64,000 nt of DNA from Megaustenia siamemsis. Its lineage: Eukaryota > Mollusca > Gastropoda > Stylommatophora > Ariophantidae. The stretch covers positions 55,496,833 to 55,560,832 of the forward strand of contig JAVIAB010000159.1 of the NCBI GenBank assembly GCA_032433765.1, written 5' to 3'. The position numbers and the translations under genes were made by a program. Below are positions 8,300 to 62,404 of the stretch, one piece after another. The notes under the pieces were generated by a model that had not been told where the DNA came from, ran no database searches, and saw only the letters and a list, made by a program, of their open reading frames with translations. How positions within the stretch are numbered: position 1 is the stretch's first letter; every line of letters begins with the position of its first letter.

Positions 8300-10585
8300 A
8301 ATACAATTTGATGGACGATAAAAACCATAGCATTTGGTTATGGAAGACCATGACATCAATGAAACGAATTAAAACCCATAATTACTCAACCGACCAGTGC
8401 CAGTGGAATTTTACGAAATAATATCTCATTTTCCAAACAAAGAAAGTTAGCTGTAGTCCCCATCACAGCTGTCTCAGTACACGCCAAAATACATAAGGCG
8501 AAATGGCATAGATTGGGAACATCAACAATCTGTTCCCGTCATACGATATCGTCATTCATAGTACGCAATCGGAATATCGAAACACGATTACAACTGATGA
8601 AACGCACCGCTCACGGTGTGCATAGAAAACTTAACTAAGTAGCTCCGGCAGCGAGCTAGACTTGGATCATGAGGAAACTGCAGCAAGGAACACTTTTCAG
8701 ACACAGCCTTTAACATTTCCTGCCGCATGTCCGCGATATTGACCGGAATTTCACGTCCTCCTGAAAATGTTGGTCGTCATATATTTTTGTTTATGTATAT
8801 CGTTTAATAATGTTAGGATATCGTTTATTTCGCCAAATCCGAACATATGAAACACAGTTACACGTCGGATTGTCCTCATCAAACAATAGATCGTAAACTC
8901 CAAGATCTCCCTGTTAATATGAATTTGTGAAATGATCAACCAATTCACAAGTCTACTTTCGTTTTAAGGTATCACTGTTGAATCCACACAGCATCCCTCC
9001 TGATTAACATGAAAACCCAGGAGTCAAACCGGGGCTGGAATGCCAGGAACAAGCCTCTTACATTTCGCCCTACATTATAAGCGGAAGGCCCTTTCAGTGG
9101 TGTACGATCAGACATCATGATGACGTAGCCCACACAACAATGGATGCTATCACAAACGCCCGATTACTCCAGTGAATGCAGCAGACAACGCAGGAAACAC
9201 TGTAACGATGGTTCAAAATCCCTAAAGTGAAACTTTCGATTGACTCGGCAAAGCATTTCATTTGAATGATTTTTAACTTGTAAATAATTCACATCAAACG
9301 ACGGTCATTGAACACATCACTCAATACGTTGATGTAAACCGCATATTAACTCAGAGACGGGGGAAGGTCATATTCACACCATTTGACCTGCCAAAGAGGA
9401 ATATTGTCATGTGCAAGACTCAGCAACATCGGCGCAAATCCAATAAATATAACATCACAAGCCCAATAGTCCTGGTTGTCCCTTTGTTTCAGCATGTAGT
9501 TTTCCCACGAAACATAAATCCAACTCATTGACAGAATTTTCCAACCCATAATGACATCTCTTCCCACCTATGTCAAGGACACCAACCATGCCCTCACTAT
9601 CTCTTCTTCACTTTCCCTTACCCCAGAGCGTCCGTACCGACATGTCGTCCTCGACGTTTCCTCTCTGTATATACCAATATCCCTTATTCTGATGGCCTAA
9701 TAGCTGTTCACTTCTTTCTCGACCAAAGAATACATCCATCTGTGAATACCTCTACTCTCTTCCGCCTCACTGAACTTATTTTCAACCTTAATATTTCAAT
9801 TTTCATAATCCAATGGTCATTTCTATGATCATGTCAGTGGTTTAGCAATGGAAATCATAGATGGGTCCTAATAATGCTTGCCTCTTCATGTGTCACCATG
9901 AACATCAAACAGTGGACCTGTACAGTGGCTCATTTCCCTTAAATACATCCGGTACACGGCGATTTTAAACTGATTGACTTGCCTGTCAATGACATCTCTA
10001 GGTTTATCGACTACATTGGCAACTTTCATAAAACCATCAAAACTATTTCATATATCTCTACTTCGTCCGTCACCTTTCTTTATCAGATCGTCTCCCTTGG
10101 CACCTCCAGCCGCCACACTTCCGTCTTCTATAAACCCACAGACGCCCACTGATTTCTTCTCTAAACCTCGTCTCATATATCTCACTGCAGAGATTATATT
10201 TCATATTCTCAATGGAGGCGAAGGCGCGCCCCACCCAGCACCAGAGCTGGAAGTCGTCAGTGAGTCATAACTGATGGCTTGCGCCAGGATCGGTGAACCA
10301 GAACCATCCAGACCCTGCTACACCTCTCCGCGGTGCCTCCAGAAACAGACTAACCTGTCTAGTCTGGCCAAGCGAGCAGGGATCGAAGAGGGAAGACAAA
10401 CCCGGTACTCAAAAATGTCGGCTGAAGTCGGATGTGTTTGGCCGAAAGGCGCAGATATCACAGTGTTATACTGCAAACTTCAACACAACGTAACTACGTC
10501 CACTTAACGTCCTTTTAAGGGCGGATGACGAGGAGGAAGTCTACGGTTCGTATCCGCTAGAATACCTCAAATCATCGGGCGACCG

Positions 10586-11459: not shown

Positions 11460-12601
11460 TAGTTGACTATGAATTTTCTAGCGCCCCTAGAAATGTTATT
11501 TTTACCTTTCTTTTTTTTTTCGTCGTGTATTCTCTTTCTCCATGAATCTGTCTGCTTCTTCTTTGAGATGAACCTTTAGAGTGTGTTTCCAGAGATTGCG
11601 GTCTGCAGCTATGTCTTCCCATGCTGCACGGTTTATGTTCAGAGTCTTCATGTTGCCCTTTTCAGAAATATGTTCTCCAAACTTAGATTTTAAGGGAGAC
11701 AAATATGATTATATTGGGAACGAGGGCCTTTGTATACTGTCATTCATGATTTTAATTCGCCCTTGTCTAAAGCTTTCTGGATTTCAGAGCAAAAATTGTT
11801 CCAGTATTCATTTGCGCACTTTCCCTCATTGCGTTGTAGATTGGCTAATGAATTTTACTAATCCACTCCTTGTATGCAGCCGAAGTATCATTGAAAGTTC
11901 GGACGTATGGAGTTTATATGGTTATGTACAGCAAGAGGTACTCCATGGAGACGTGGCTTATCAGGACTTAGGCCTTTCCAGAAACAAAGTATAATTTTCT
12001 CCCGTTACAGAATCATTGTCTGAGTCTTGTGTCTTGCAGAGCTGCAAAATCGACCGCTAGCCATCTTAGCTTTTTTTTTTTTTCCAAGAGGGCTGATGTT
12101 CTAATTTGCCCTTCTTTCTGTGTGTTAACTTTAACAAGTGCAGGACACATGGGCCTTTCGTTCCATGTGCCAAGTTTACACAGTGGTGCTTTCTTCCTCA
12201 TTTCACTATTCCCAGTCCATCTGGGCACAGAATATAGAAACAGTCCTTTACCCAGTCACATATACCCTCTTTCGACTTGGCTTCAAGAATCTCCAAAAGA
12301 GGGACAAAGTCCATACGTTCGGAATTGAAAGAAGATACATGGGATGCCAGAAAGAAGGATATCGCCGTTTAATAATTTAAGGGACCTCCCTGCGGATTTT
12401 TAATGTGGGTGTATTCTCATAATCTTCGACGCTACTATAATTTAATCCATAGTGGAGGGTTTTGAGATCGAAGTTTCTCTTCTTCTAGGCGGGTTACAAT
12501 CCAAGGTTTTCGAGTCTAAGCGGAGCGATATCTAAAGTTACCCCTTTTTCAGGCACAGGTGCCGGACGTCCGAGAAAACACTTTACCTGTCAATGTTACG
12601 C
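11460..12601 (-). mobile_element. LINE remnant with endonuclease and C-terminal parts, left arm
   Basis: On the minus strand, 12,310-12,000 encodes the start of an APE-type endonuclease: LGTWNERPMCPALVKVN, then LAVDFAALQDTRL. About 11,980-11,760 gives the endonuclease/RT linker (ANEYWNNFCSEIQKALDKGE). About 11,690-11,510 gives the C-terminal segment NINRAAWEDIAADRNLWK. The whole reverse-transcriptase core is missing. The right-arm copy (52,704-57,535) has the RT core but not the C-terminal part, so the ancestor had both. The 5' end of the LINE continues beyond two nested insertions as 15,103-15,149 and 16,510-16,549. I cannot place the clade. Confidence 0.75.
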
Positions 12602-15159: not shown

Positions 15160-16509
15160 TATAAAATCTATCTTTGTAGCCATACCGAAGAAGTCAGGCG
15201 CCACTGATTGTGAAGACCATCGCACTATTAGTCTCATATAATATAGAGCCATATGACTAAAATATTACTAAGAATAATCATGAGACATGTAAGGAACAAA
15301 ATAAAACCAGAAATAAGTGAGGAACAATGTGGATTTGTGGAAGGAAAGGGCACCAATAATGCAATAAACATCTTAAGGACATTGATAGAAAGATCTATAG
15401 AGGTAAATAAAGATCTATATATGTGCTTTATAGACTACACAAAAACATTTGACAAAGTAAAGCATGTGGAAATAATAAATATGCTAAAGAAATTAAACAT
15501 TGATGGCAAGGATCTGCGAATCAGAAAAAAACATGTACTGGCAACAAACAGCAGCTATACGAATTAACAACCAAACAGGACAATTCCAATATATAAAACA
15601 AGGAGTCAGACAAGGCTGTGTTCTGTCACCGGATTTGTTTTCACTTTACAGCGAATATATTATGAGATCAATAGTAGACAAAAAAGGAATTGAAGTCAAC
15701 GGTCACAACATAAATAATTTGCGATATGCAGATGACACAGTCTTAATAGCAGAGACAGAGAACGATCTACAAGAAATGATAGACATAATAGTAGAAGAAA
15801 GCAACAAGAAAGGTCTCAGTCTGAATAGTAAGAAAACAGAAGTAATGGTTAAATCGAAGAAACAATCATTACCATCATGCAGCATAAAAATAAACGAGAC
15901 AAATCTGAAACAAGTACAACGTTTCAAATAATTGGGAACAATAATTACATCAGATGGAAGATGCACCACAGAAATAAAATGCAGAATAGCTCAGGCCAAA
16001 ATAGCATTTCAGAAAATGAAAAATATATTATGCAACAAATCTATGTCAATAAAAATGAGAAAGAGAGTTCATCGGTGCTATATAGAACCAATTCTGACCT
16101 ATGCAAGCGAATCATGGACAGTGGACAAACAAATGAAAAGACGATTAGAGGCCACAGAGATGGGATTTCTCAGAAGAAAGTTGAAAGTTCCCTGGACAGA
16201 TAGAAAGACCAATGAGGAAGTTCTCAAAGAGGCCAACAGAAAAAGGGAGCTCTTAAAAAACATCAGAAAGAAACAATCAACATTTTTCGGGCATATCATG
16301 AGAAGAAGAAAGTTGGAATACTTGGTTACAACTGGAAAAATAAAAAGAAAGAGAGATCGCATACGACAAAGAGAGAAAATACTGGATAGCTTGGTGTCAT
16401 GGCATGGAAAACAATCAACAACAGAACTAATACGATGCACTGTAGATAGAAGATTGTGGAGGGACATGATCGCCTACGCCAACCGGCAGGGTACATGATG
16501 ATGATGACG
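15160..16509 (+). mobile_element. 5'-truncated RTE-type LINE
   Basis: The 10-bp sequence aaaatagtgc at 15,150-15,159 and 16,510-16,519 flanks the insert. The insert ends in the (ATG)n-like atgatgatgatgacg tail common in RTE elements. It encodes most of a reverse transcriptase in broken frames. 15,253-15,540 has EEQCGFVEGKGTNNAI and FIDYTKTFDKV. 15,575-15,930 has GVRQGCVLSPDLF and the catalytic LRYADDTVLIAE. 15,932-16,498 has the C-terminal FFGHIMRRRKLEYL. A frameshift near 15,530 and a stop at 15,929-15,931 inactivate it. The right arm (about 52,740) has an uninterrupted sequence with a single caatagtgc, the empty site. Confidence 0.87.
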
Positions 16510-16799
16510 AAAATAGTGCAGAATCCGTTTAATTAATTAAATATCCATAGAATGAATATGGCTACCTGCGTCCAAACCATGTAAACAATGTTGACTTTCC
16601 TTGTCTCCAACGATGTATCTCATTCCAATAGAGAATTCCATGCTATCTGTTATCACAGCGAGTTGGCGGATTTTTATAAATGTAATGATGGGTTGATAAT
16701 AAATGTTTGTACACAGCTCGTCAACCATCGCTGTAGATCAAGTCTTTATTCGCTGGCTCCGCTCGCGACCTTGGAAGCTAATGACCTTACTTTTGCAGC

Positions 16800-18243
16800 C
16801 GGTTGGTTTGGGGCAAATTGTACGTTACAATGCCACTGCTATAAGGAAGCAGTTTGTGACAAATCTACAGGGACATGCCCAAACAATGACAGTTGTCAGC
16901 ACGAATATTTCGGACCCCAGTGTCAGTACTTGGATTTTGTTTACAAATATGCCCAAAAATCTGAACCTACTTTCCTGCTTGATAACAACGACACCTCAAG
17001 TAATCCGGACACAGTTTCTACATCAGTTGAGGCAACTCTCAATCAATCTTTGCCGCACTCCTGGTTTAGGATTTATGTAAATGACTTAACAGTTAAGGAC
17101 AGTTTCATGGTAAATCTGAATGGTTCTGCCTCATGTAACAATGTATCAAGGTTTGTAGTTAGTCCGCACGAGATTGATGCCTTTTGCTCTGGGGCTGGTC
17201 TGATCAACAAGTTACGGATTGAAGGGGCGATAGTTGCAAATATCTGCTCCATCTACATTGGCGGGGTTCGGAATGTGGCTCTCAAACAGATCACAAACCA
17301 TATAGACACATTTGATGCTTGTTATGCAGGAGACGGATGTGGACTAGAGGCCGCAGTTAATGGCAAAACAAAGACCATTCTCTATGACAATGACTGCACA
17401 CACACACAATGGAGAAGTGGAACCAATTCTGTTTACTGGTATCTGAACTTTGCCACGCCCCAGAAGACTCACACCATTCGAATCTATCATCGAGCTAGCA
17501 ATATGATTCGGGTAAAGAATGCCACTCTAAGGGCTTTCTCTGACAGTGGCGGCGTAGTGTTCCAGTATAATGATATATCATACCCTAATATTTCTGTGAA
17601 CACTATTGTAGTCAACACACAAATGCCAATGGCACACATTAAGATTGAATTCTCACTGACCATTTCGCAGGCCGACAGTGCACTGACGGTATGTGAGGCG
17701 CAAACATATACAGACACCTATTGTCTGGACGAGCATTCTTGGTCGTTTTGTGCAATGTCTAGTGGGTGTAGTAAAGGCTGCAACGCCATCATCGGTATGT
17801 GTCACGGCAACTGTTCACAAGGGATCTATGGACACGACTGTTCCGGGTCTTGTCTTAGTGTCTGTCCTTTATTTGAGGAAAAATCCGGAAAATGCATACA
17901 ATGTAAATATCTTGGCTATATCTGTAATAACACTTGTCCCGATGGTAATTTTGGGATACAGTGTGAACAGACGTGTTCTTATGGCTGTGGCATCATATGT
18001 GACCCGGAAAGTGCAGACTGTACGTGCAAGGAAACGTATTACGAGTCAGATTGCACTCTTAAATGTCCGGACAACTGTTTCAACGACACCTGTGAATAGA
18101 CAATCGGGAACTGTACATGCAAGAGAACGTTCTATGGGCCAGACCGCACTCTCAAATCTCCGGACAACTGTTTGAACGAAACCTGTGATTCCCACGTTCA
18201 GAAGAGTCTGCCGAATACAACAAGCCCAAGCATATGGACACTT
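16800..18243 (+). pseudogene. MEGF-like / fucolectin-domain protein exon (in-frame stop)
   Basis: The coding part begins after a good acceptor (ttacttttgcag, ending at 16,799) at GWFGANCTLQCHC, an EGF/laminin-type opening found in molluscan MEGF10-like surface proteins. A non-EGF region follows, then a fucolectin/galactose-binding-like domain from about 17,270 (NVALKQ, AVNG, CTHT, YWYLNF, HTIRIYHRAS). Cys-rich EGF-like repeats fill 17,720-18,100. A TAG at 18,097-18,099 interrupts the frame, which continues with one more EGF-like stretch (NCTCKRTFYG) to a stop at 18,244. The right-arm copy lacks that TAG and reads on into a hydrophobic IWIPFAIAALLPL, possibly the remains of a membrane segment. 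Scavenger or engulfment receptor function is known for the family; for this exon it is inference. Confidence 0.7.
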
Positions 18244-18870
18244 TAATGTGTTTCTGTGCTAGACATGGTTCATTTCTTGGTGTTTTTCCGTGAAGCGATG
18301 GCTCATATCTTGATGTGTTTCTGTGCTCGCCATGGCTCATATCTTGGCTTGTGTGTGCTGGCCATGGCTCATATCTTGGTGTGTGTCATGTTAGTCATAT
18401 CTCATATCTTGGTGCGTCCGTGTTAAGCATGTCTCATATCTTTATGTGTGTCTGTGTTTAGTCATATCTCATATCTTAGTATGTAGCAGTGTTAGTCATA
18501 TGTCATATCTTTGTGTGTGCATATCTGGGTTAGTGATATCTCATATCCTTGTATGCATTTCTGTGTTTGTCACATCTCATATCCTTGTGTGTGCATGGCT
18601 ATGTTAGTCCCATATCATTTCTTTGTGTGTGCATATCTATGTTAATCATATCTCTTATCTTTGTGTGCATGTCTATGTTAGGCATGTGTCATATCTTTGT
18701 GTGTGCATGTCTATGTCAGTTATATCTCATAGCTTTATGTGCATGTTTATGTTAGTCATGTGTCATATATCTTGATGTGTGTCAGTGTTAGTCATGCCTC
18801 GTATCACTGTATGCATGTCTGTGTTAGTCACATCTCACATCTTTGTGTGTGCATGTCTGTGTTAGTCACC
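18240..18870. repeat. Minisatellite of ~35-45-bp units, left unit
   Basis: Diverged units built around gttagtcatatctcatatct followed by ttgtgtgtgcatgtctgt repeat about 16-18 times. The inverted counterpart is at 53,930-54,720. Both arrays sit between the MEGF exon and the R-like segment, so the array belongs to the mobile unit. Open frames across it on either strand are repeat artefacts. Confidence 0.85.
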
Positions 18871-18874
18871 TCTA

Positions 18875-19204
18875 GTGACTCGGGCACATGATGCTCGTAA
18901 ACCTGGGAGGGCCGACCATCTAAGGGTAGAATCCTCCTACAGAAAAGACAACCTGCTGCCTTGCAGGACGATTGGGGACAATCAAAGGCTAGGGAAAGCA
19001 AACCCAAATATAAAATGCTGGCTGAAATCGGATGCACTGGGCCACTGGCGCAGAACACAGTGCAACGTATTAACGGGTGTTCATTCAGAGTGGATCTGGC
19101 GAACTCTACTTGAGATGTTCTGTCTGTTGGGGCGATCAACACACTTAGCCTAACAGCTGACTTCATGTTGGAGTCTGGAATAATACTCTGATTGAGTCCT
19201 AATC

Positions 19205-19257
<53 letters not shown>
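18875..19257 (+). mobile_element. Retroposon-R-like 3' segment with (GA)n tail
   Basis: This ~330-bp segment recurs inverted at 53,567-53,900 at the same position in the right-hand MEGF unit. It shares several cores with the free retroposon at 10,214-10,636. It ends in about 50 bp of (GA)n (19,207-19,257), directly followed by the target duplication. It is the likely 3' end recognised by the retroposition machinery. No protein is encoded. Confidence 0.65.
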
Positions 19258-19262
<5 letters not shown>

Positions 19263-19265
19263 TAT

Positions 19266-21578
19266 TCTGCATAGGACGTTCGCGATAGCATTTTACATCA
19301 TTTTTTTTTATAATAAGTACATTATAGAGAAATTATTAGTTTGTTCTAAACATTGGTCAAATCCACAGCTTAGCTTATTTAAATAAATCAAAGGGGAAAC
19401 AATTACCACTTTTGGTCTATGAAAAGTGAACAATAAGATTATTTTGTATGACTATTGGAAACATTGATGGAAGAAGAGTTACAATGTCTTTGGAAGAATG
19501 TACATATCTATTTATATATAAGCAGTTAAAAACAATGGCTTGGTAGTAAGTCAAGAGCATAAATAATAAATCTAACAATAAAAGAATAAATACATGATCA
19601 CCTGTACCAGCAGACACTAACACTGAAGATAATAATGATGCTGTTTATCTTGATGATGAGACAAGTACAAGTTGTCTCTCATGATGATATATGTAGAAGT
19701 AATCTCCCATGATGAGACAAGTAGAAGGTATTTCCCATGATAAGATAAGTAGAAGATATCTACAATATTAAATTTGCAATTGTTGCTTTCAAGAACCTGA
19801 TGATATAGCACGTGAACACTTCACGATGTAGCTGCGACTGATTCCCAGTAGAAACCGGACTAAATGGGTCATATAACGACATCATTATTCGTAATAGCAA
19901 TGGGTTGGGACATGCCAAATTTTTTTGCAAGAAAGAATAAAACGTCAGACGGACAAAGTATGAAGACTTAGAAAGTCTCGACTGTGCTCATGTTTTCGTA
20001 TTTTTCAGCTCAACATGCAGAGATTTTAAAAATCGGTACCAGGATACTAGAGAAATAGGCATCCAGATCAACACAGAAAACCACGTACTATCAAACATAA
20101 CAAATAATATAGAACTCCTTAAAGAGCTTCTACAAAATAGCTAACACTTCAACTATATATTGGACACGATGACTGGAGATGGAAACTATTCAACTTGTGG
20201 GACAGCACTACACAAATGTGGATTTGAGTTCTGGAAATCGGCTCAAATTATAGAAAGAATCTATTGCATTAAAGAAACTCGTAAACATAAATTGAAGAAA
20301 ACTTACTATAATAATTGTATATGAGAGCAGACCAAATGAATAAGCAATAAAATCTAGATACAGTAAGATGAACCAACTAAATGTATTTGAGAGGATAGTG
20401 TCATAAAGCACAAAACAGAACATATTTTACATAGAACAACACATTGTTAATCAAATATATAATTGTGAGTTTAGTTTAATCGACAGATCATCTTTCTTGC
20501 ACATTTGACAACCCCTCAGATCCCCTCATTAACACTTTCGCACTATTAAGTACGTCTACCCCACACTAGCGAAAGCACGAACGATGTGTTAAACTCATAT
20601 GTACTAACACAGCAGTATTTCAAACACATTGACCCCAACCTCCACACTTGCCACTTACGACATGAGTAGCAGGAACGGTGGCTTTCTTCTAATCTCCCCT
20701 GATTGCGGTCAGGACTCTGGTAAACAAATTGATGAAATCTCGAATTATAAAAAAAAAAAAGAATAAACAAAGTCCAACGATAGGGGCAATGCCTCTGATT
20801 TCATTGGTAGCTGAATTTCGGAAACTCCAAAGACTCTATTTCCTTTTTAATTGAATATATAACAGTCATTCCATACAACATGTCACTACACACATGAATT
20901 AATACTTCGGCTTTGTGTCTTCTTATGCAGTACATTATGTGGTTACATATTAACAAAAAGCAGTCCTACTTTTAAATGTCACATCTTGTCGGTGTTGCTC
21001 TTTTCTCATTGTCCTGTCTCATCACAAACGAAACACAAAACTCTGGTGATATTAGCCCCTGCTATGTCCGGTCCCAGCAGCTGAGTTCATCCAAGCCCTT
21101 CCAGTACCGAGACCACTACTCATGTCATCCACTCATGTCATCCACTCATGTCATCCACTCATGTCTGAGACTTGCGATCAAAGAATCACAGTTTCAAGCT
21201 TGAACGGAAAACACATCCAATGATAAAAGCGATAAAGTCCATGGTGGAGACTTCTACTCATGTCATCATCACTTAAACGAAACACAAAACTCTGGTGACA
21301 TTAGCCCCTGTTACAAGCGATACATAGAATGATATGGACAATCACGTTTTCACAACGAGAGCAAGATATCCACATGTACAGTTGTTTACAATAGTTTTTT
21401 AAATCTGCGATAACAGCACACTCAAAACATCATACTCACATCTTATCCTATGAGTCCCAATTGCATCAATGATCGCTTCTTTATGTGAATGCTCTTTTAT
21501 AACATTTTATAACATTAAGAAATCGTTACATTTTGTTATTATTTCTTATGGCTAGAGTGTTGCAAATTGTTATCTTTG

Positions 21579-21616
<38 letters not shown>

Positions 21617-21647
21617 TACCACTAGTATACACATATGCATGACTGTG
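19266..21647. other. Non-genic left-arm stretch
   Basis: The stretch is collinear, reversed, with about 49,030-52,693. It includes short repeats of a tctcccatgatgagacaagtagaag type at 19,670-19,760, a 16-bp repeat (catgtcatccactcat) at 21,118-21,168 also present at 49,390-49,465, and a (CA)n run at 21,578-21,616. No reading frame in the two arms is conserved as protein. Confidence 0.6.
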
Positions 21648-21679
21648 ATGATTAGTGTTATTGTTATTGTTATTGGCTA

Positions 21680-22180
21680 TGGAAGGCCTCGGTCTCACAG
21701 CAAACGAATTAAAATCCATAATTGCTCAACCGCCCGTGCCAGTGGAATCATCCGAATTACTAACTCATCTCCCAAACAAAGAAAGGTAACTGTAGTCCCC
21801 ATCGTAGCAGTCTCAGCACACGCCAAAAGACACAAGGCGAAACCGCGCAGAAAGTGAACACAGCCAACTGTTCCCCGTCACACGATATCATCATTCATCG
21901 TAAACAAGCGGGATATCGAAGCAGGATCAAAACGGATGAGACACACAGCTCACGGTGTGCACAGAGCACTTAACTCAGTAGCTCCTGCAACAAGCCGGAT
22001 TTGGAATTTGAGGAAACTGCAAGAAGGAACACTTTTCAGACATAGCCTTCAATGGTTCCTGCCGCCTATCCACCATATACCATGGTAGTTTACGTCCTCC
22101 CGAAAATGATGATCGTCGTAGCACTTTATGATGTTAGGCCATAATTGATGACTCCAATTCCAAACATATAGACACACAGT
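21680..22180 (+). mobile_element. Penelope-like element 5' fragment
   Basis: This matches 8,310-8,870 in the left-arm Penelope-like element, with shared blocks such as gaaggcctcgg, agtgccagtggaat-like, caaggcgaaa, and the gatgttaggccat...gactccaattcc end. Related copies lie at 57,985-58,250 (+), 35,140-36,405 (- sense) and 61,740-61,120 (- sense). Confidence 0.7.
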
Positions 22181-22184
22181 GGTG

Positions 22185-22760
22185 GTAAGTTATCATTTCC
22201 AATCCAACAGAAGCCACATGACCTGTAGTTAGTAAAAACACAATTGATGATGTTCTCCGCTCCCTTCTTGTAGCTGCCGTCACACGATTCTGATGTCTCA
22301 TTAACTTGGACATCATTCAAGAACAATGTCAGATGAACATTCCATAGATATGGCTTTTCTGATGAAGTGCTTGGTGCAACAGTTGTATCAATCATAGTGG
22401 AGGCTCCTGGTATGTGTTCTTTAATATCACAGACGGCACATGATGTTGTTATATTCAGAATTTCTTTCAGGGGTGTAAATACGTGGCACACACATGGAGA
22501 GTGGCTTGTGGTCACAGTAACCCCATTAAAGGCAATTCTAGGGTAGCATGGCATAGCTGTTTCAGAACAGCACAATCCTGTGATGTTTTCTGTGTTCGCT
22601 ATAAAACTGCTGCTGCTACCCAATCCTGACCAATTATAGGTGTGGACATTATTCACTTGCAATGACAAAACTGTTTTGTTTACATCATAAACCTCTGGAA
22701 GCGAATCATTTATGGGACTAATAGTACAATTTATTCTTCCATCGGGGATATCTTCATTGA
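22185..22760 (-). CDS. Unknown secreted or membrane protein exon
   Basis: A single open frame (maximal extent 22,126-22,806) has protein-like composition: about 13 cysteines and seven N-X-S/T sites (for example NWSGLG, ENITGLCC, ILNITTSC, VNETSESC). On the minus strand a poly-T tract and the AG ending tcaatgaag, just before DIPDGRINCTI, look like a splice acceptor near 22,760. The frame ends by running into the Penelope 5' repeat after CWIGNDNLPPLC. I do not recognise the family; an immunoglobulin-like or other extracellular module is possible. It lies in an insert absent from the right arm and is opposite in strand to the neighbouring receptor exon. Confidence 0.45.
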
Positions 22761-23212
22761 GTCCCAAAAAAAAAAAATCTTTGGTATGCTTTTGAGTTAA
22801 ACACAAAATGAGCCCACTTCATAGATTCAAAATGATCCTTGCCAATGACATCCGTTTGCACAAGTTAGGTCCTTAGCTACCAATGTCACAAACTAAGACA
22901 TCAAATTAACGACTTTATCTACAGCGAAGGTTAACGAACTGTGAACAAACATTTATGTTCAAACCCCTGAATACATTTTCAAAAACTTGCCAACTCGCTG
23001 CAATAACATTTATCGTGGTATTCAAAGTAAACATTGCTTAGTCCATAACTCGAATATAAATCAAATGATTAGTGTATACCTCCATAAATCACAAACACAT
23101 ACACACAGATGGTCATACAAAACTATACCAGTCTTCGTGTATGCCTCAACGGGTAAAATACCCACACAGACGGATACACACAGCTATACAATGCTTCGTG
23201 TACATCTCAATG

Positions 23213-23645
23213 TACAACACAAGCAAGACACGTTTGTTGTATACGTCATTGAAGACAATGTGCAACACAAGCAAGACACGTTTGTTGTATACGTCATTGA
23301 AGACAATGTACAACACAAGCAAGACACGTTTGTTGTATACGTCATTGAAGACAATGTACAACACAAGCAAGACACGTTTGTTGTATACGTCATTGAAGAC
23401 AATGTACAACACAAGCAAGACACGTTTATGGTATACTTCATTGAAGACAATGTACAACACAAGCACGACACGTTTATTGTATACTTCATTGAAGACAATG
23501 TACAACACAAGCAAGACACGTTTATGGTATACTTCATTGAAGACAATGTACAACACAAGCAAGACACGTTTATTGTATACTTCATTGAAGACAATGTACA
23601 ACACAAGCAAGACACGTTTATTGTATACTTCATTGAAGACAATGC
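23213..23645. repeat. 48-bp tandem repeat, 9 copies
   Basis: The unit (caatgtacaacacaagcaag, then acacgtttgttgtatacgtc, then attgaaga) repeats nine times. The first five copies carry mainly gttgtatacgtc and later ones attgtatacttc, showing subgroup structure. The right arm at about 48,880-48,920 has only one remnant unit. Because 48 is a multiple of three, long frames open in several directions; they are artefacts. Confidence 0.93.
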
Positions 23646-23923
23646 TCAAAGAGCGTGATGATCAAGTCAGAGAATCTGTTAAGGGTCATCGATAATAATA
23701 AACACAACAATGTAAGAAGTTGAGAAAGCTGATTTAAAGAGTTTCTCTCCTAGGGCAATTGTTAGAAAATAGCTGCTTAAGGTTAACATGAAAGGAAGAT
23801 GAATATCATTACATATATTGTTTGTATTTTGGCGATAATAAACTCATTCATTAGAATGCACATTTAAAAATAAAATATGCTCAAAATATATTCCTATTTA
23901 TAATTGTTTTTTTTTATCTTTGC

Positions 23924-35139: not shown

Positions 35140-36405
35140 TCAGAGACAAAAACTATGTTCTAATATCATCAAACGCTGTAAATTAAAAACAAGTATGACG
35201 ATCAACATTTTCAAGAGAACGTGAACTTCCGATCAATATGGTGGATATGAAGCGGGAACAAATGGTTGTTTTCACTTTGTGTGCGGTTTCGCCTTATGAT
35301 TTTTGGCAGGTGCTGAGACTGATTTGATGGGGACAACAGCTACCTTTCTGTGTTTGGGAGATGAGATTCGGATGATTACGCTGGCACGGACGGTTGAGTA
35401 AGTGTGGATTTTAATTCGTGTTCAGTGATACCGGGGCCTTCCATAACCATATAACCAAATAAATCCGTCTGTGTGAGCTTTTTGCTCGTTTAAGTATAAA
35501 CGAACCTCGGCATAGTTTTGCATGTCTGTTTGTATGTTTTTTTGTGATTTAATGAAGTAGACATTGAGTTTTATTAATTTGATTCTTGTGTTGATGGCAG
35601 ACGCTCTCGTTGCTTATCCAGTTCACCTATATATTGTATGTCCACTTCAGTCGTTGTCTACTTTTGCCTCGCTTGTCCTGTACATTTGCTTTCAGAAATC
35701 TGTACGGCCGTACACTAATAGTGAGGGGCGGAATGGACTTTTGTTTATGACTTTGCAGCACCGGGGGGAGTCCCGACGGTTCATGTTAGTCAGGAGGGAT
35801 TCATAATTTCACACATTCACATTGCAGGGAAATCTTACAGTCTGTTGTTTGATGTGAGATGGGGATAGTCCGATGACTAACTTTATTTTATATGTTCGGA
35901 TTTGGAGTCAGGGTGATGTCCTAGCATCATCAAGCGCTATACATTTTAAAAAAATGACGAACATCATTTTTGGCGGACGTGAACTTCCGATCAATATGGT
36001 GGATAGGAGGCAGCAATCATTAGAGGCTATATCTGAAAAGTGTTCCTTGTTGCAGTTTCCTCATGTTCCAAGTTTGGCTTGTTGCAGAAGCTACTGAGTT
36101 AATTGTTCTGTGCACACCATGAGCCTGCACGTTTCATCTGTTTTGATCGTGTTTCGATGTTACTATTGTTTACGATGATTGATGATATCGTATGATGGAG
36201 AACAGATGGCTGTGTTCAATTTATGTGCAGTTTCGCCTAATATCTTTTGGCCTGTGCTGAGACTGCTATGACGGGGACTACAGCTACCTTTCTTTGTTTG
36301 GAAGATTAGATAGTAATTCGAATGTTTCAACTGGCACAGGTGATTGAGCAATTATGGATTTTAATTCGTTTGCAGAGATACAGGGGCCTTCCATAAACAT
36401 AATCA
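35140..36405 (-). mobile_element. Two antisense copies of the Penelope 5' region
   Basis: The blocks 35,140-35,460 (partial) and 35,805-36,405 (nearly complete, ~600 bp) match each other and 61,120-61,740. Shared landmarks are tatgttcggatttgg, aaaagtgttccttgttgcag, agtttcgcctaat, and the terminal ggggccttccataa at 35,434 and 36,386. The second copy retains no frame. The stretch 35,465-35,804 between them shows nothing recognisable. Confidence 0.7.
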
Positions 36406-45935: not shown

Positions 45936-46568
45936 AAGTTTATATCTCACCATTTGTTTGTCTTCTGCGTAAACCTTTGGAACGGACTCTTAATAATTAA
46001 AAAAAACATTGGGCACCTCAGTGCTTTCAACATCTCCATAGAGCTTGTATAGGTCTTGTATTGATTATAGTTTCAAAAGCTTTCTCTATTCATCAAAATT
46101 GAGCATCTCTGTAGAAAATGTTTGGCAGCCATTTTGTCTGTATCACTGTTACTTTCATCAACTGCTGATATACTTGGGGTGTTGAATAGATGTTTGTTCA
46201 AATTGTTATGTCTTGTTTAAAGTATTAATATTGTTACTTGTTCATTTTCTCTGAGCTGGCAGTCAGTAATCATAATTGTTGTTAACCCTGGTGTTTTGTG
46301 TGTCCATTTGTTCATGCATTTGCTCCTGAGAATTCTCTCTATACTTTTGTCAGGCTTGTGTAGTTTACAAATTCCTTTTGCCAACTTGTCAGTCTCAATA
46401 AATGCAGGAATATTTCCAAAAACTGAGTTAAGGTAAATTATCATGAACATGATAACAAGTTACCCATACCGCGCTTTAAACTTGGTTTTTCTCATTCAAG
46501 TAAATTGAAGCCACAATTTCAGGGTCTCAGCCTTAAAATTGTTTGTATACTTTGTATGTATACATCAT

Positions 46569-48604
46569 ACTGTTGAGGAATACAGTATTCGTCTGGACAT
46601 TTAAAATATCCAACTGGACATTCAAAGTCCGTACAGTTCTCTAGATGGGACATATCTCTACAGCCAATAATAATGTCGTATCTGTCTCTGACATAGACAC
46701 ATCTTGGAGCCCATATTCTATGACCATGTTGGTTGTGACAAGTGTCCGCTGTTTCCAGTTTCCCTATCGTCTCATCATCAAGGTGTCCCTCCCACATCCA
46801 GTACAGTCAACGTGTCCATCGTTTAGCTGGGAGAAGTGAACACATTTATCATCATTACAAATAAAGGCACAAGTCTCATCCAAGGGTCCCTCCCACCCAG
46901 CACAGTCAACAGTGTCCATCGTTTAGCTGGGAGAAGTGAACACATTTATCATCATTACAAATAAAGGCACAAGTCTCGTTTCTCAGTCAGATATTTGTGA
47001 AGTGATCACAAGTCTCGTTTCTCTTCAGATACGTGAAGGACACTTCATGTCCCAGACAGTCTATCACAAACAGAACAATCCGCCTGTCCATCATTAACCC
47101 ACCGCCACGGCAAGCAATAACCGTTACAACAATAGATCCCGTGACATTTATTGTTGTATAAATCCCTTGTCTCAGTGACGGGCTTCCAGCACAAACCTTC
47201 ATCTCGATTGTTGTTACAATCATTGACGCTGTCACAGACCATAGAATAGGAAATGTATCGAGTTTTATCTGCGCCTAGCCCACAGTCAAAGAGGGGAAAT
47301 AACTTGTAGCCTGCTTGATCAAGAAATTTGAGAAAATCAACATTTTCAAAGCTGAACGAGACAGACACAATATTAGATTTGTATTGAACAAAACCTCCAC
47401 CTTTTAGAGCTTTGATAAAACTGTCGTCAGTGGCTGGTTTTATGTCTGCATGGATGGTGTCTTCATCAATTCTTCGAGGAAACGAAATCTCACACAACGT
47501 GAATGTGCTGTAATCATCGATAAAAACGTCAACCCATCCATCAACAAAATCATCTTGGTATCGGGAATCGTTAGTAGTATTATTTCTGTTTTGTCTCCGG
47601 TCAAACTGCCACATGACATGATCATTCCAAAACTCACCAGAAGGTTTACCAGGCAACCAGTGATTAATGACACTTGACCGTTCTTCCATTATTTCAGGCA
47701 ATTTCCAAGCAAATCCCATGGAAATAACGGTACGGTCTTTAATGAGGTTAAGATAACATCGAGCCGGATAAATATTTTCTCTTAGATTTCTCAGACCATC
47801 TAAATATGAGAAGATCTTATTTTGTAAAAACATCAACTCGTTTCTACTGTCAATTCCAACAATACTGGCCCTATCATTATGCTCACAAATATCCTTCGAT
47901 GTTAAAAAGTGGCCATAAGACGGTGTGATTATGTAACATGAGATTGAATATGAACCATGTGTATGCTCAAACTGCCACCATTGTTGTATACACAGATTGC
48001 ATATTGGCATAATTAATGTGTAAACGAAAGAAAATGCCGTGTCATAACCTATAATAATCGTGTCTCTTAGATGGACAATTTTTCTCTCATTCTTTACATC
48101 TATCACCACAGTGAATATTTTTATATTCGTTTCTTGTTGCTCTAAAACATGTGCTACATTCCTCCTTTCTTCATAAGTCAAGTCGTATCCATCAATAAAC
48201 ATTACCGCCATGTGAATCGCGTTTCTTCTAACTTCTCCCATCTCAGAAAACAAGCGACTAACAAATTGTACTTTGTGCTCAATGATCACGTTGATACTTT
48301 TATAACTTTGAGTTGTATCTTCTGCTTCATTGTATCCATACGGTGTCTTATTAAGGGGTACGTCGAAATGCCATGAGCTGATGTTTACGTAGGAATTGTC
48401 CACAGAATACTCGTCGTAAACTTCAGCCAATAAAACACGAGGAGTTGATGTGTTGTAAGGGAAGCTTAACAGATGTTCCATAAATGTAAGGCACACATAT
48501 TTGACGCTGTCATAGATGTACTTATCATACAGACATAACACGTCTATCTTTTCTGATGCACACCCCTCTAATGGGAAGTTTGGAGACTTTCTTTTACAAA
48601 TCAC
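46569..48604 (-). pseudogene. GRL101-like receptor exon copy, truncated and rearranged
   Basis: Homologous to 23,924-25,833 of the left receptor exon, with the same splice acceptor (tctttgcag, reverse complement at 48,605-48,613). The frame is open for about 519 residues to 47,045 and covers the vWA-like, C-type-lectin-like and first LDLa-like regions. It then breaks: an ~40-bp stutter at 46,970-47,030 and an ~99-bp tandem duplication at 46,804-47,000, which is roughly one LDLa-like module with a 1-bp offset. Homology ends after EYCIPQQYDV at about 46,569, so LRRs and the 7TM domain are missing. If expressed it could give at most a receptor-ectodomain fragment. Confidence 0.85.
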
Positions 48605-48613
48605 TGCAAAGAT

Positions 48614-50965
48614 AAAAAAAAAAAAATTATAAATTTTTAAACAGGAATATATTTGACATATATTTTATTTGTAAATGTGCATTTTTTTGAATGAGTTTAT
48701 TATCGCCAAAATACAAACAAAATATCTATTGATATTGATCTTCCTTTCATGTTAACCTTAAGCAGGTATTTCCTAACAATTGCCTTAGAAGAGATAATCT
48801 TTAAATCAGCTATCTCAACTTCTTAAATTATTGTGTTTATTATTATCGATGACCCTTAACAGATTCTCTGACTTGATCCTTTGAGCATTGTCTTCAATGA
48901 AGTATACAATAAACGTGTGAGTGTTTTGCCCCTTGAGGCATACACATTGTCTGGTATAATTTTCTATGGCCATATGTTTGTATGTGTTTGTGATTTATGG
49001 AAGTAGACACTAATCACCATAATCATTCCTAGGTGTACATTAGTGGTGTATATGTGTGTATATGTGTGCAAAGATAACAATTTGCAACACTCTAGCTATA
49101 AGAAATTATAACAAAATGTAACGATTTATTAATGTTATAAAATGCTATAAAAGAGCAATCACATAAAGAAGCGATCATTGATGCAATTCGGACGCATTGG
49201 GTAAGATGTGAGCATGATGTTTTGAGTGTGTTGTTATAGCAGATTTAAAACTATTGTAAACAACTGTACATGAGGATATCTTGCTCTTTTTGGGAAAACG
49301 TGATTGTCCATATCATTCCATGTATCGCTTGTATCATTGGATGTGTTTTCCGTTCAAGTTTGAAGCGGACTTTCTTTGATCGCAAGTCTCAGACATGAGT
49401 GGATGACATGAGTGGATAACATGAGTGGATGACATGAGTGGATGACATAAGTGGATGACATGAGTAGAAGTCTTCACCATGAACGTGCTTGGATGAACTC
49501 AGCTGCTGGGACCGGGCATAAAGGATGTAATATCACCAGAGTTTTGTGTTTCGTTCGTGATGACGACAATGAGAAAAGAGCAACATCGATATGATGGGAT
49601 ATTTAAAAGTGGGACTACATTTTGTTAATATGTAACCACATAGTGTACTGCATAAGACGACATAAAGTCGAAGTGTTATATTCATGTGTGTTACAAGGAA
49701 TGACAGTATTTTATTCAGTTAAGAAGGAAATAGAGTATTTGGAGTTTCCGTTATTCGGCTACCAATGAAATCAGATGCATTGCCACTATCGTTGACCTTT
49801 GTTGATTCTTTTATTTTTTTTCCTTAATTCGAGATTTCGTCAATTTGTTTACCAGAGTCCTGACCACAATCAGGGGAGATAAGAAGAAAGCGACTGTTAC
49901 TTGCTATACACATACTAAGTGGCAATTGCGGAGGTTAGGGTCAATATGTTTGCGGTACTGCTGTGTTAGTGCATATGAGTTTAACCCATCATTCCTGCTT
50001 TCGCTAGTGTGTGGTAGACGTACTTCATAGTGCGAAAGTGTTAATGAGGGGATCTTAGCACTGAGGGATTGCCAAGTGTGTAAGGAAGATGATCTGTCGA
50101 TTAAACTAAACTCAAAATTATAGATTTGATTGATAATGTATTGTTCTATGTAAAATATGTCCAGTGTTATGCTTTATGATACTATCCTCCCAAATACATG
50201 TAGCTGGTTCATCTTATTGTATCTAAATTGTATTGCATATTCATTTGGTCTGCTCTCATATATAATTATTTTAGTAAGTTTCCTGAAATGTATGTTTACG
50301 AGTTTTTTTTTTTTAATGCAATAGATTCTTTCTAGAATTTTAACAGATTTCCAGACCTCAAATCCACATTTGTGCAGTGCTATCCAACAAGTTGAATAGT
50401 TTCCATCTCCAGTCCTCGTGCTCAATATATAGTTGAAGTGTTAACTATTTTTTAGGAGCTTTCTAAGTTGTATTTATATTATTTTTTATGTTTGATAATA
50501 CGTGGTTTTCAGTGTTGATCTGGATGCCTATTTCTCTAGTAGGTACCGATTTTTAAAAACACTGCATGTTGAGCGAAAAAGAACGAAAACATGAGCAAAG
50601 TCGAGACTTTCTATGGCTTCATACTTTGTCCGTCTGACGTTTTATTCTTTCTTGCAAAAAAACTTGTGCATGTCCCAATCCATTGCTATTACGAATAATG
50701 CTGTCGTTATATGACCCATTCAGTCCGGTTTCTACTGGGAATCAGTCGCAGCTACATCGTGAAGTGTTCACTTGCTATATCATAAGATTCTTAAAAGCAA
50801 CAATTGCAAATTTAATATGGGATATAACTTCTACTTGCCTCATACGGGAGATAACTTGTACTTGTCTCATCATGAGAGATAACTTCTACATATCTCATCA
50901 TGGGAGATAACATCTACATATCTCAACATGCGAGCTAACTTCTACATATCTCATCATGGGAGATA
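48614..50965. other. Non-genic right-arm stretch
   Basis: Collinear, reversed, with 19,770-23,920 minus the left-only insert. Contains a 16-bp repeat (atgagtggatgacatg) at 49,390-49,465 with about five units against three on the left, and a remnant single unit of the 48-bp repeat near 48,880-48,920. The last 150 bp is a short tandem array of the tctcatcatgggagataact type. No conserved frame. Confidence 0.6.
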
Positions 50966-52143
50966 TGTAATAGACTTGAGTTAATGAGGGCAGGAAACTG
51001 AGTTGTTACCGCTTTTCAAATAGAGTGTAAGTTCAGGTAGGGTTAGGATACCCAGAGGTGAGGAAGGAGGTAAGGTAGAATGATGACACATGGGATGAGA
51101 CATGGACGACACGATGAGAGTTTAGGTTAGGAAATTTTCCATGCAGCAGAAGTGGAAATTGGAAGAAATTCTCCACGATTTCCATGCGGGCTCACAACAA
51201 CAGGTTTTTGTTGTGAGTGACCATAGATAGACGCATGACTAGCGCATGCATCGACCTTATGACTTTATTGTCAGATAAATAGCTACCAGGATGAATTAGG
51301 TCATGGGAGGATGGTTCACAAATAAGTTGTTTTGACAAAAGTTAGACTAGGGTCGGGGAACGGTCAAGTAGCTGCACATGAAAACTGCAGGTGACCAGAG
51401 AGAGTCGCAGGTGGTCAAGTTTGCGACGATCTTATTGGTCACTGGTTTTCAGACGTAGAGAGTGATTGGAGTATATAAACTCCTACACAACGATTAATAG
51501 GCAGTTCAAGCAGAAGTAGAAGCAGTTAGGCAGCTCAGGAAGAATATTAGATTATGAAGTTCTGTCAGGATGAAGTACGTCAGAACAGTTAGTTCAGAAC
51601 AGTTAGAATAGTCAGAACAGTTAGAATAGTCAGAACAGTTAGAAAAAATAAGATTAGAATTGAAGCCAGTAGTTAAGAAGTTAGAATCTCCAAGTGTAGT
51701 TCAAGTCAGTTTAGAAGTTATTCTTAATAGATAGTTGATCGAGAATATTATGACATTAGTTGTGAAGTGATTGTGTTTCAAGTATTTCATGAATTGAGCT
51801 TCAATAATCTTACATGTCGTAAGTAGACAAGTTGAATGATGTCTGATGAATAAGTTGTATGCCATCTATGCACTAGAGATAATCTCATAGTCATCGGCAA
51901 ATTGCCTCCGAGATATCTTGAATTAAGTAACATTAATTTCAATAGTGCATTCACCACATACGATCATTGTCAAGACAGAAGACAGCAATAAACCGATTAT
52001 TATTGTTTATTAAAACAAAGACTCTGTCACGAATTACCTGTTGTAAAATTAATGTGATGTGATGTGCTGAGACGTTTAACACGTTACATAAATTACAAGT
52101 TATAATATAAAGACCATTAAAACTATATAACACATAACCTACA
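50966..52143 (-). mobile_element. Probable solo LTR, right arm only
   Basis: The segment splits an array of tctcatcatgggagataact units that is continuous on the left (19,670-19,760). It begins TGTA and ends TACA, the short inverted termini of LTRs. It has a TATA-like gtatataaactcc at about 51,471 and an aataaa near 51,988, about 510 bp downstream. No coding sequence is present. The orientation given assumes neither strand strongly (the TATA and AATAAA both read on plus, so plus is also likely). The target duplication is not certain (atat on both sides is possible). Boundaries may be off by a few bases. Confidence 0.5.
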
Positions 52144-52265
52144 TATATCATCATGGGAGATAACTCGTACTTGTCTCATCATGAGAGAAAACTTCTACAT
52201 ATCTCATCATGAGAGATAACTTCTACATATCTCATCATGGGAGATAACTTCTACTTGTCCCATCA
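52144..52265. repeat. ~30-bp tandem repeats, distal half of split array
   Basis: Units of catcatgagagataacttct type continue the array interrupted by the probable LTR. The proximal half is at 50,815-50,965. Confidence 0.75.
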
Positions 52266-52380
52266 TCAAAACAAACAACATCATTATCATCTTCAATGTT
52301 AGTGTCTGCTGGTACAGGTGATCATGTATTTATACTTTTATTTTGACATTGTCAAAATACCAAGCCATTGTCTTTAACTG

Positions 52381-52386
<6 letters not shown>

Positions 52387-52441
<55 letters not shown>
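52387..52441. repeat. (AT)n microsatellite
   Basis: About 55 bp of perfect alternating AT. The left arm has only tatatata at the matching place (near 19,512), so this grew after duplication. The flanks 52,266-52,386 and 52,442-52,693 are plain arm sequence. Confidence 0.95.
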
Positions 52442-52442
<1 letters not shown>

Positions 52443-53527
52443 TTCCAAAGTCATTGTAACTCTTCTTCCATCACTGTTTCCAATAGTCACACAAAATAAT
52501 CTTATTGTTCACTATTCATAGACCAACAGTGGTAATTGTTTCCCCTTTGATTTATTTAAATAATCTAAGCTGTGGCTTTGACCAACGTTTAGAACAAACT
52601 AATAATTTCTCTATAATGCCCTTAGTATTCTCTTGATGTTTGTGTTTAAATACGCTGTAAAATTATATCGCGATGTGTAACGTCCTATGCCGAATATTCA
52701 TTCTATGGATGTTTAATTCATTAAACGGATTCTGCACTATTGTTGTGATCTTTTTTTCAATTATAGGGTACTGTCTAGCGTAACATTGACAGGCAAAGTG
52801 TTTCATCGGACGTCCGGGCACATGTGCCTGACTGAAGGGGTAACTTTAGATATCGCTCCGGGTAGACGGGACTCGTAAACCTTGGCTGGCAACCCGCCTA
52901 GAAGAAGAGAAACTACGATCTCAAAACCCTCCATTATGGACTAGATTCTAGTTAGAATCGAAGGTTATGGGAATATATACAAATTAAAAATCGGTAGGGT
53001 GGGCCCTTAAATTATTAGACGGCGCTATCCTTCCTTCTGGCATCCCCTGTATCTTCTTTCAACTCGAAAGTATGGACTTTGTCCCTCTTTCGGAGATTCT
53101 TGAAGCGAAGTCGAAAGAGGGAACGTGTGACTGGGTAAAGCACTGTCTCCATATCATGTGCCCAGACCGAGTAGGCAAAGTGAAATGAGGAAGAAAGCAC
53201 CACTGTGTAAAATTGGCACATTGAACGTAAGGACCATGTGTCCTGCACTTGTTAAAGTTAACACACAGAAAGAAGGGCAAATAGAAAAAAAGCAGCCCTC
53301 ATAAACAAAAAAAGAATTAAGAAGGCTAGCGGTCGATATTGCAGCACTGCAAGACATAAGACTCTCAGTGATTCTGTAACGGGAGAAAAGTATAATTTTT
53401 TTCTGGCAAGGCCTAAGTCTTGATAAGCTACGTCCCCATAGAGTAGGCCTCGCTGTACATAACAAACATATAAACTCCCTAAACACACCAAAAGGCGTGT
53501 CCGAACATCCAATGATACTTCGGCTGC

Positions 53528-53566
<39 letters not shown>

Positions 53567-53569
<3 letters not shown>

Positions 53570-53900
53570 ATCAGGACTCAATCAGAGTAGGATTCCAGAC
53601 TCTCACATGAAGTCAGCTGTCAGGTTAAATGTGTTGATCGCCCCCACAGACAGAACATCACAATTAAAGTCTGCCAGATCCACTTTGATTGAACATCCGT
53701 TAAAACGTTGCACTGTCTTTTGCGCCAGTGTCCCAGTGCACCCGATTTCAGCGAGCATTTTATTCAGGTTTGCTTTCCTTATCCTTTGATTGTCCCCAAT
53801 CCTCCTGCAAGGAAACAGATTGTTTTTTTCTGTAGGGGGATTCTTCCCTTAGATGGTCGGCCCTCCCAGGTTTACGAGCACCATCTGTCCGAGTCACTAG
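53567..53900 (-). mobile_element. Retroposon-R-like 3' segment of the right unit
   Basis: Reverse complement of 18,875-19,205. It contains the same blocks (cactgggccactggcgcaga-like core, ggagggccgaccatctaagg) and abuts the (CT)n tract. Confidence 0.7.
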
Positions 53901-53929
53901 AGGTGACTAACACAGACATGAACACAGCG

Positions 53930-54720
53930 AAACGAGGCATGACTAACACTGACACTCATCTAGATATGAGATATGACTTACATAGATATGCACACACAAA
54001 GATGTGACACATGACTAACATAAACATGCACACAAAGATATGACACATGCCTAACATAGACATGATCACAATATATGAGATATGACTAACATAGCCATGC
54101 ACACACAAGGATATGAGATGTGACAAACACAGACATGTACACACAAAGATATGAGATATGCCTAACATAAACATGAACACAAAGATATGAGATAGAATTA
54201 ACTCAGACATGCACACACAAAGATATGATACATGACACACAGATACACCCTAAGATATGAGATATGACAAAACACAGACACACATAAATATATGAGACAT
54301 GATTAACACGGACACACCAAGATATGAGATATGATTAACATGACACACACCAAGATGTGAGCCATGGCTAGCACACACACACACACACAAGCTAATATAT
54401 GAGCCATGGCTAGCACAGAAACACACTAAGATATGAGCCATGAATACACGGAAACACACCAAGATATGAACCATGTCTAACACAGAAACACATTAAGATA
54501 TGAACCATGGCCAGCACGCATATACACTAAGATATGAACCATGGCCTGCACAGACACACACTAAGATATGAATTAAGGCCAGCCCGGACACACGCTAAGA
54601 TATGATCCATGGCCAGCACATACACCCAGTAATATATCAGCCATGGCTATTGCAGACACCCACTAAAATATGAGCTACGACTAGCACGGATATAGACTGA
54701 GAATTGAGCCATGACTCAGA
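53930..54720. repeat. Minisatellite of ~35-45-bp units, right unit
   Basis: Inverted counterpart of 18,240-18,870, here with more units (aagatatgagatatgactaa, then cacagacatgcacacac). Copy number differs between the two units. Confidence 0.85.
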
Positions 54721-57539: not shown

Positions 57540-57785
57540 AAAAAAAAGAAGACAAAATTGGTATGGCAACAGCTTTACGTAGGCGAGTAATAAAACAAAG
57601 GTCGACGTTTCGGCCAAGTTGGACTTCAGCTGGAACAACAAATGTAGTTGTTGTTGCGTTCACCAGCTTTCAACTCTGACGAAGTCCCTAGAGACTAGGG
57701 ATTGAATTGTGCGTGTTAATCCATTTTTCCCTAGCAGCCGTGTGCACAGGGGTCCCTCGCTGCACAGGCAGATAACTCCGACTTT
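57540..57785. other. Unassigned repeat-like sequence
   Basis: Contains gtcgacgtttcggccaagtt and a small hairpin (tccctagagactaggga at 57,686-57,702). It is absent from the left arm at this place. The style suggests a retroelement end, but the family is not recognised. Confidence 0.3.
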
Positions 57786-57789
57786 GGAG

Positions 57790-57985
57790 GTACTCATGTT
57801 TTTTTTTTTTTTTTTTTCCCGTCGATGAGTAACTGACGTTTCGAGCTGTGCCTCGCTGCTGAGACCAGGGGTGGTTGCCACAGAGAAAAATAATAAATAA
57901 TAATCCAAACCGGTGTAGCCGAGATTTGAACCCACAACCTCTTTGTCCCGAAGCCGGCGTCTTGCTTCGAGACCAACCAGTCCCC
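57790..57985 (-). mobile_element. Possible tRNA-derived SINE of a second type
   Basis: On the minus strand a tRNA-like head has a B-box-like gggttcaaatctc (reverse complement at 57,921-57,933) and an A-box-like tggttggtctcgaagc. It is followed by aaccacccctggtctcagca and a poly-A tail (plus-strand T run at 57,799-57,818). It borders a Penelope 5' fragment directly. I could not find a clean target duplication. It is unrelated to the dimeric SINE. Confidence 0.5.
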
Positions 57986-61740: not shown

Positions 61741-61744
61741 ATGG

Positions 61745-61817
61745 TTTTTTGTGTCCACCAAATATTAGTCCATAAAACAACAACCTTGAGATTCAGACAG
61801 GTTAGAAGCATATCCGT

Positions 61818-61858
<41 letters not shown>

Positions 61859-62400: not shown

Positions 62401-62404
62401 CTTA

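Follow-up and report, generated by a model that had tools for sequence, protein, structure and literature searches.

The window, i.e. the whole stretch of 64,000 nt of Megaustenia siamemsis DNA that was analysed (contig JAVIAB010000159.1, positions 55,496,833 to 55,560,832), is organised as a large inverted duplication with arms at approximately 4.7–25.8 kb (4658–25836) and 46.6–62.9 kb (46566–62929), the aligned pieces of which are mostly 79–93% identical. Where one arm has an insertion, the other can thus serve as an internal empty-site reference. The left arm carries, among others, a unit at 16560–19255 designated here F1; a second F1 copy is found in the right arm, and a copy of another family (F2) lies further downstream in the left arm. 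The following features were recognised:

16549–16559, + strand: left target-site duplication (TSD) of the left F1 insertion, AGAATGAATAT
16560–16798, + strand: F1 5′ module, with the AG at the exon boundary as its end
16799–18240, + strand: MEGF/fucolectin-like exon
18248–18868, + strand: VNTR (minisatellite) with units of 32–38 nt
18868–19208, + strand: R segment of approximately 341 nt, the final 56 nt of which (19153–19208) match a LINE 3′ end
19208–19255, + strand: (GA)n tail, present also at the 3′ end of LINE copies
19255–19265, + strand: right TSD of the left F1 insertion
52694–52703, − strand: right-arm counterpart of the left F1 insertion, empty, with the TSD once and the flanks joined
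53532–55801, − strand: second F1 copy, inverted, 5′-truncated within the exon and continuing with VNTR, R and tail
53521–53531 and 55802–55812: TSD of the right-arm F1 copy, GTATGCAGCCG
11872–11882, + strand: left-arm counterpart of the right F1 copy, empty, with a single GTATGCAGCCG
21659–23064, − strand: F2 copy with the shared 5′ module (truncated), a different frame and a different 3′ end
22126–22818: open F2 frame in the window copy
21648–21658 and 23065–23075: TSD of the window F2 copy, ACACTAATCAT
49007–49017, − strand: right-arm counterpart of the F2 insertion, empty, one base off the TSD

The TSD of the left F1 unit is GAATGAATAT (10 nt), or 11 nt if the A common to the tail is counted. 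A first-pass annotation, made from the window alone, had described this unit as lying between duplications and missing from the right arm, with its MEGF-like frame, minisatellite, R-like segment and (GA)n tail all in one orientation; each of these observations was confirmed, the duplication being present on both sides of the unit and only once in the right arm. The left copy is devoid of approximately 28–31 nt of the complete F1 5′ end (TGACGTCATGGGACGCACCAAGATGGAC...), and its module and exon together form an open frame at 16585–18099 (504 aa), up to the TAG at 18097. The insertion is adjoined at 15932–16498 by the end of a frame that we take to be of LINE type and that closes in a TGATGATGATG tail; the Pfam scan of this frame end revealed no RT match. 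Altogether three empty sites are present in the window, two for F1 insertions and one for the F2 insertion. Since each arm holds an F1 insertion with its own TSD where the other arm is empty, a precise deletion would be needed twice, and the two-way empty sites thus speak against such a deletion.

The genome (2.59 Gb, 155 contigs) was searched with the unit. The first look yielded 11,823 candidates, VNTR and R matches among them, 40 of which were scored; these 40 places (the window copy included) are spread over 22 contigs in 57 matching pieces, the other scored copies being 82–96% identical. The analysed set of 40 copies (L001–L041, with L008 removed as a duplicate of L009) was grouped by eye into subfamily A (27 copies, on average 2.3% from their majority), subfamily B (eight copies plus L022 and L034, which are more diverged and carry D-type modules) and the copies L019, L028 and L037. 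The order of parts in F1 is 5′ module, exon, VNTR, R segment and (GA)n, the VNTR ranging from 269 to 1625 nt across 35 copies. Furthermore, F1 copies have a fixed 3′ end with a simple (GA)n tail and variable 5′ truncation.

The 3′ end was left unresolved by the script in five of the 40 copies. Among the remaining 35, an exact repeat of at least 8 nt between the 5′ flank and the flank following the tail was found in 20, compared with 25 of 1,190 mispaired flank combinations (2.1%), and no TSD of 8 nt was seen in the other 15. The duplications differ from copy to copy and are mostly 9–13 nt long. At least five of the 20 (L005, L009, L018, L029 and L041) have flanks with local repeats and carry less weight, because such flanks inflate TSD matches in a manner not covered by the mispaired control. 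In the 13 copies whose complete 5′ end could be recognised, the 200 nt upstream showed no mutual similarity at E 1e-3; these copies therefore do not share one flank, in agreement with the mobility proposed previously. The complete 5′ end reads TGACGTCATGGGACGC..., with the start at approximately TTGACGTCATGGGACGCACCAAGATGG. The element starts at TGACGTCATGGG or a one-base variant of it within approximately 6 nt of the TSD in nine or more copies (L003, L004, L005, L010, L014, L017, L019, L024 and L025; for L019 and L024, the TSD was assigned by eye), which indicates a defined start and not random truncation. The start contains TGACGTCA and CCAAGATGG, which we take to be CRE-like and YY1-like motifs, respectively.

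Over its final 56 nt, R has 84% identity (E 3e-13) with a LINE 3′ end in L020 and 86% with one in L027, both of which carry a GA-rich tail; a third, more distant LINE end (76.5% over 81 nt) lies on the opposite strand of L020. The match is restricted to the final ~56–70 nt of R. In the LINE frames upstream of the shared end, Pfam detected RVT_1 in L020 (E 3.8e-24) and RNase_H in both L020 (E 2.7e-11) and L027 (E 6.7e-6). From the RNase H and the C-terminal cysteines, the LINE presumably is of the I/Nimbus-like type. Twelve of the 68 proteins related to it name an organism, all of them molluscs (Littorina, Elysia, Nucella, Ostrea and Mytilus). There is good support for retroposition of F1 by way of a LINE-type 3′ end, and the sequences suggest that mobilisation occurs in trans by the matching LINE, which is known here from fragments and would itself be an autonomous element. 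Two other origins were considered for R and rejected. Against a free SINE, VNTR sequence lay upstream in all 10 fetched R matches (10 of the 40 scored, from 4,143 in the first look), and in four of these the 800 nt retrieved extend into the exon. Against a relic derived from the 5′ end of the RTE-type LINE at 52760–53200, R has only chance-level words in common with it.

With regard to the exon, the 434 codons from the exon boundary align co-linearly with a 700-aa fucolectin-type protein of Lymnaea stagnalis (24% identity, E 4.3e-17), the sole match to the exon among 689 candidates. The Lymnaea protein bears PF22633, and a direct Pfam scan of the exon gave only a sub-threshold F5_F8_type_C match (E 0.069). 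When searched against the genome under study, the Lymnaea protein matched nine places on contig C41 with open frames of 494–1365 aa (32–35% identity) and one shorter one, others with long stop-free frames on C47, C51, C125, C107 and C90, and also many F1 copies (28–30% identity). MEGF/fucolectin genes with long open frames cluster at C41:46.1–61.8 Mb and C51:60.72–60.78 Mb. The parent gene of the F1 exon was not found in the direct genome search, which was swamped by F1 copies, and neither was a source of the 5′ module in this genome analysis.

The 5′ module is not confined to F1. It recurs at 22849–23023 and in L040 ahead of sequence unlike F1, i.e. in the family F2, whose 5′ end is the same as that of F1 (CATGGGACGCACCAAAATGG). 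The F2 frame encodes a cysteine-rich protein of 308–309 aa with no homologue among 365 candidates from the protein database; the F2 3′ end differs from that of F1 and has a tail like (CCAATAA)n. Three fetched F2 copies and L040 are 98.4–99.4% alike, with the frame intact in three of the four, and all 40 scored F2 modules (the best 40 of 1,529 candidates) are 99–100% identical to the query, pointing to a recent spread of F2. The modules of F1 and F2 are 73–83% alike, while their exon proteins exhibit no similarity. In the 20 columns before the exon boundary, the F1 D-type module matches that of F2 in 19 columns for L019 and in 15 for L034; after the boundary 7–13 of 20 columns match, with a few matching bases carrying on. 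An F2 3′ segment without most of the F2 frame stands behind other sequence at 8334–8781, 35889–36395 and 61288–61735, so that 3′ ends, too, are exchanged, and the segment belongs to further elements.

Exact matches to the 5′-end 20-mer CATGGGACGCACCAARATGG were found at 2,634 places in the genome; the F2 35-nt 5′ end had 1,245, the F1 A/B 25-mer 89 and the D-type 25-mer 256 exact matches, with the control at 0 in every case. Approximately 1,044 of the 2,634 fit none of the F1 A/B, D-type and F2 extensions exactly and may be mutated members or further families. At C124:57.92–58.12 Mb, six exact F1-type 5′ ends follow one another on one strand with a spacing of 34–44 kb, representing either a tandem segmental array or genes with an F1-type front end, and at C8:40045886–40046198 three exact F1-type 5′ ends lie 144 nt apart, the 5′ end itself being in a tandem repeat. 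Taken as a whole, the 5′ module (start TGACGTCATGGGACGCACCAARATGG, ~230–270 nt, ending at the exon boundary) can tentatively be considered, at slightly less than even odds, as a mobile, reusable front end that was combined repeatedly with various host exons and LINE-type 3′ ends, giving rise to a modular superfamily of exon-carrying retroposons with F1, the very young F2 and, in view of the unassigned 5′ ends, probably more.

For 16 host-like matches on C41, C47 and C51, chosen by judgement, the surroundings were checked for exact F1 A/B and D-type 5′ ends; none of the 16 had such an end within 366 kb, which argues, as far as exact matches of these two types go, against the module being the own promoter of those genes. 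This bears on two alternative origins of the module. According to the first, F1 and F2 derive from two paralogous host genes with a common promoter and intron that were retroposed separately, no module having passed between elements. Both frames are indeed cysteine-rich and of the extracellular type, and a few matching bases are seen past the boundary (GCAGACGGTTG vs GCAAACGGATG). Between paralogues, however, coding exons should diverge less than an intron does, whereas here the proteins are dissimilar and the module is alike; together with the host-like genes checked having no exact 5′ end nearby, this makes the paralogue origin rather unlikely.

The second alternative corresponds to the interpretation offered by the first-pass annotation, namely a single retroposition of an unspliced host read-through transcript, with 16560–16798 as a retained end of a host intron. 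In its favour, the exon begins where an exon boundary is plausible (read by us as phase 1), and the Lymnaea protein shows a signal-peptide-like start immediately ahead of the matching point. In subfamily A, moreover, the stretch before the exon contains a branch-point-like CTAAT and has TTGTGCAG as its end. In the window copy and the A majority, though not in B, the supposed intron part is open in the frame of the exon. The AG at the boundary, however, is AA in F2, and F2 has the same upstream stretch before a different frame, with homology dropping near the exon boundary; a retained host intron is hard to reconcile with a module reused in this way, and the 16 host-like matches, likewise, had no exact 5′ end within the distance checked. 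The unspliced read-through source is thus unlikely and was not upheld. Splicing of a module exon onto the host exon, or template switching, explains the break near the boundary better than a retained intron does. Nor is the window insertion the capture event itself, as had been assumed, because the composite was already fixed in a dispersed family.

Substitutions in the exon were compared with a neutral expectation obtained from trinucleotide-context shuffles. In subfamily A, 281 private changes were nonsynonymous against 280.8 expected, and 91 shared ones against 82.0; in B the values were 211 against 202.4 and 37 against 35.5, i.e. without a deficit. The A-to-B differences included 36 nonsynonymous ones against 34.6 expected (dN/dS 0.80), and pN/pS on differences from the group majority was 0.77 and 0.80. 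The exon drifts as expected without selection and, with its substitutions at the neutral expectation, looks like a passenger. Stops were fewer than expected among the private changes of A (13 vs 18.7), among its shared changes (3 vs 6.6) and among the private changes of B (7 vs 11.2), and not among B shared ones (1 vs 0.4), no set being significant alone. In the 5′ frame (unit positions 29–235), the shared A changes lean synonymous (14 nonsynonymous vs 18.6 and 12 synonymous vs 7.5 expected), with P ~0.02 as one of many tests; the A-to-B differences show no such lean there (10 vs 11.5 expected). Subfamily B has a stop in the 5′ frame, which is open in the left window copy and in the A majority. 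The stop deficit and the synonymous lean leave room for a weak or past constraint on the frame.

These values also bear on the idea that the frame was kept since its protein is useful to the element, in which case F1 and F2 would be protein-coding retroposons. Apart from the slight stop deficit and the synonymous lean in the 5′ frame of A, it could draw on the B copies, which keep frames of ~434 codons with 0–3 stops, and on F2, with its frame intact in most of the young copies and two young pairs having pN/pS of 0.45 and 0.21. Nonsynonymous changes in F1, however, equal or exceed the neutral expectation and its pN/pS is 0.77–0.80, while the 24 distinct frame changes among the four young F2 copies comprise 16 nonsynonymous ones against 17.3 expected and the older window F2 copy has a pN/pS of 0.75, so that a protein useful to the element seems improbable. 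That the repeats are a dispersed gene family or segmental duplications and not retroposons is extremely unlikely: many copies do keep most of the frame open, and long-frame MEGF/fucolectin genes exist in the genome, some of them clustered, but the idea is contradicted by TSDs that differ between copies, by the tails and the empty sites, by flanks unrelated to one another, by the 5′ truncation and by the substitution pattern.

Retroposition of a unit with a host-type exon, as claimed at first, is corroborated by the copy-specific TSDs, the empty sites in both arms, the tails, the 5′ truncation and the LINE with the same 3′ end. F1 is, with a probability of about 85%, a non-autonomous composite retroposon mobilised by a LINE and consisting of a 5′ module, a host MEGF/fucolectin-type exon, a VNTR and a LINE-ending 3′ segment. 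Its RNA would start at approximately TGACGTCATGGGACGC..., consistent with a putative promoter role of the 5′ module, and would be taken up via the shared 3′ end by the LINE reverse transcriptase. Target-primed reverse transcription would then insert F1, leaving target duplications, frequent 5′ truncation and the (GA)n tail. Splicing or template switching presumably joined the exon to the element a single time, in an ancestor, and it would have been copied as a passenger since then.

SINEs that share the 3′ end with a partner LINE are a known kind of retroposon. F1 resembles them in having its last 56 nt and tail in common with a LINE, and differs from them in being much longer, with an exon and a VNTR, and, as judged from the window, in having no tRNA-like head. 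ARAGORN found no tRNA-like pol III head at 16000–23700 and Rfam no match at 16000–20000 with E ≤ 1, and a tRNA-derived SINE was rejected on these grounds. A processed retrogene or pseudogene was likewise rejected in view of the (GA)n tail, the VNTR, the LINE-type 3′ end and the 2,634 exact shared 5′ ends.

The closest known systems are the hominoid VNTR composites SVA, LAVA, PVA and FVA, of which PVA, according to PMC4432496, has its VNTR fused to PTGR2 exon 4 and a portion of intron 4. F1 is like these elements in being non-autonomous, modular and LINE-mobilised, with a central VNTR and TSDs, and like PVA in its host exon; it is unlike them in having the host exon 5′ of the VNTR, the 3′ end of an RNase H-bearing LINE, a (GA)n tail and a mollusc as its host (PMC4432496). 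No CT hexamers were seen by eye in the F1 5′ end, and F1 works like SVA but is no SVA member, being by eye without the CT-hexamer/Alu-like head and differing in tail and LINE. VNTR composite retroposons are called specific to hominoid primates (PMC4432496, PMC7353768), and among the literature matches listed none described a host-exon-bearing composite retroposon from a non-primate. According to PMC6139936, SVA_F1 carries the first exon of MAST2 and the chimpanzee pt_SVA_D6 that of STK40. There too a host exon became part of an amplifying retroposon family with an exon boundary at the junction; the captured first exon replaces the 5′ end in those elements, whereas in F1 a protein-coding exon of ~1.4 kb follows a 5′ module common to another family (PMC6139936). 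The LINE-1–mRNA chimeras formed by 5′ transduction, given in PMC13174262 as single insertions (17 in the human reference), similarly have host exons joined to retroelement RNA, a TSD and a tail; they join an autonomous LINE, in contrast to F1 and F2 as non-autonomous many-copy families (PMC13174262).

The best reading of F1 is a composite design convergent with SVA/PVA whose 5′ module serves for more than one kind of cargo. An independent origin of this design, involving a different type of LINE and a different tail, would show that it can evolve more than once, and the thousands of copies together with a young family would provide a system for dating and testing exon capture by retroposition.
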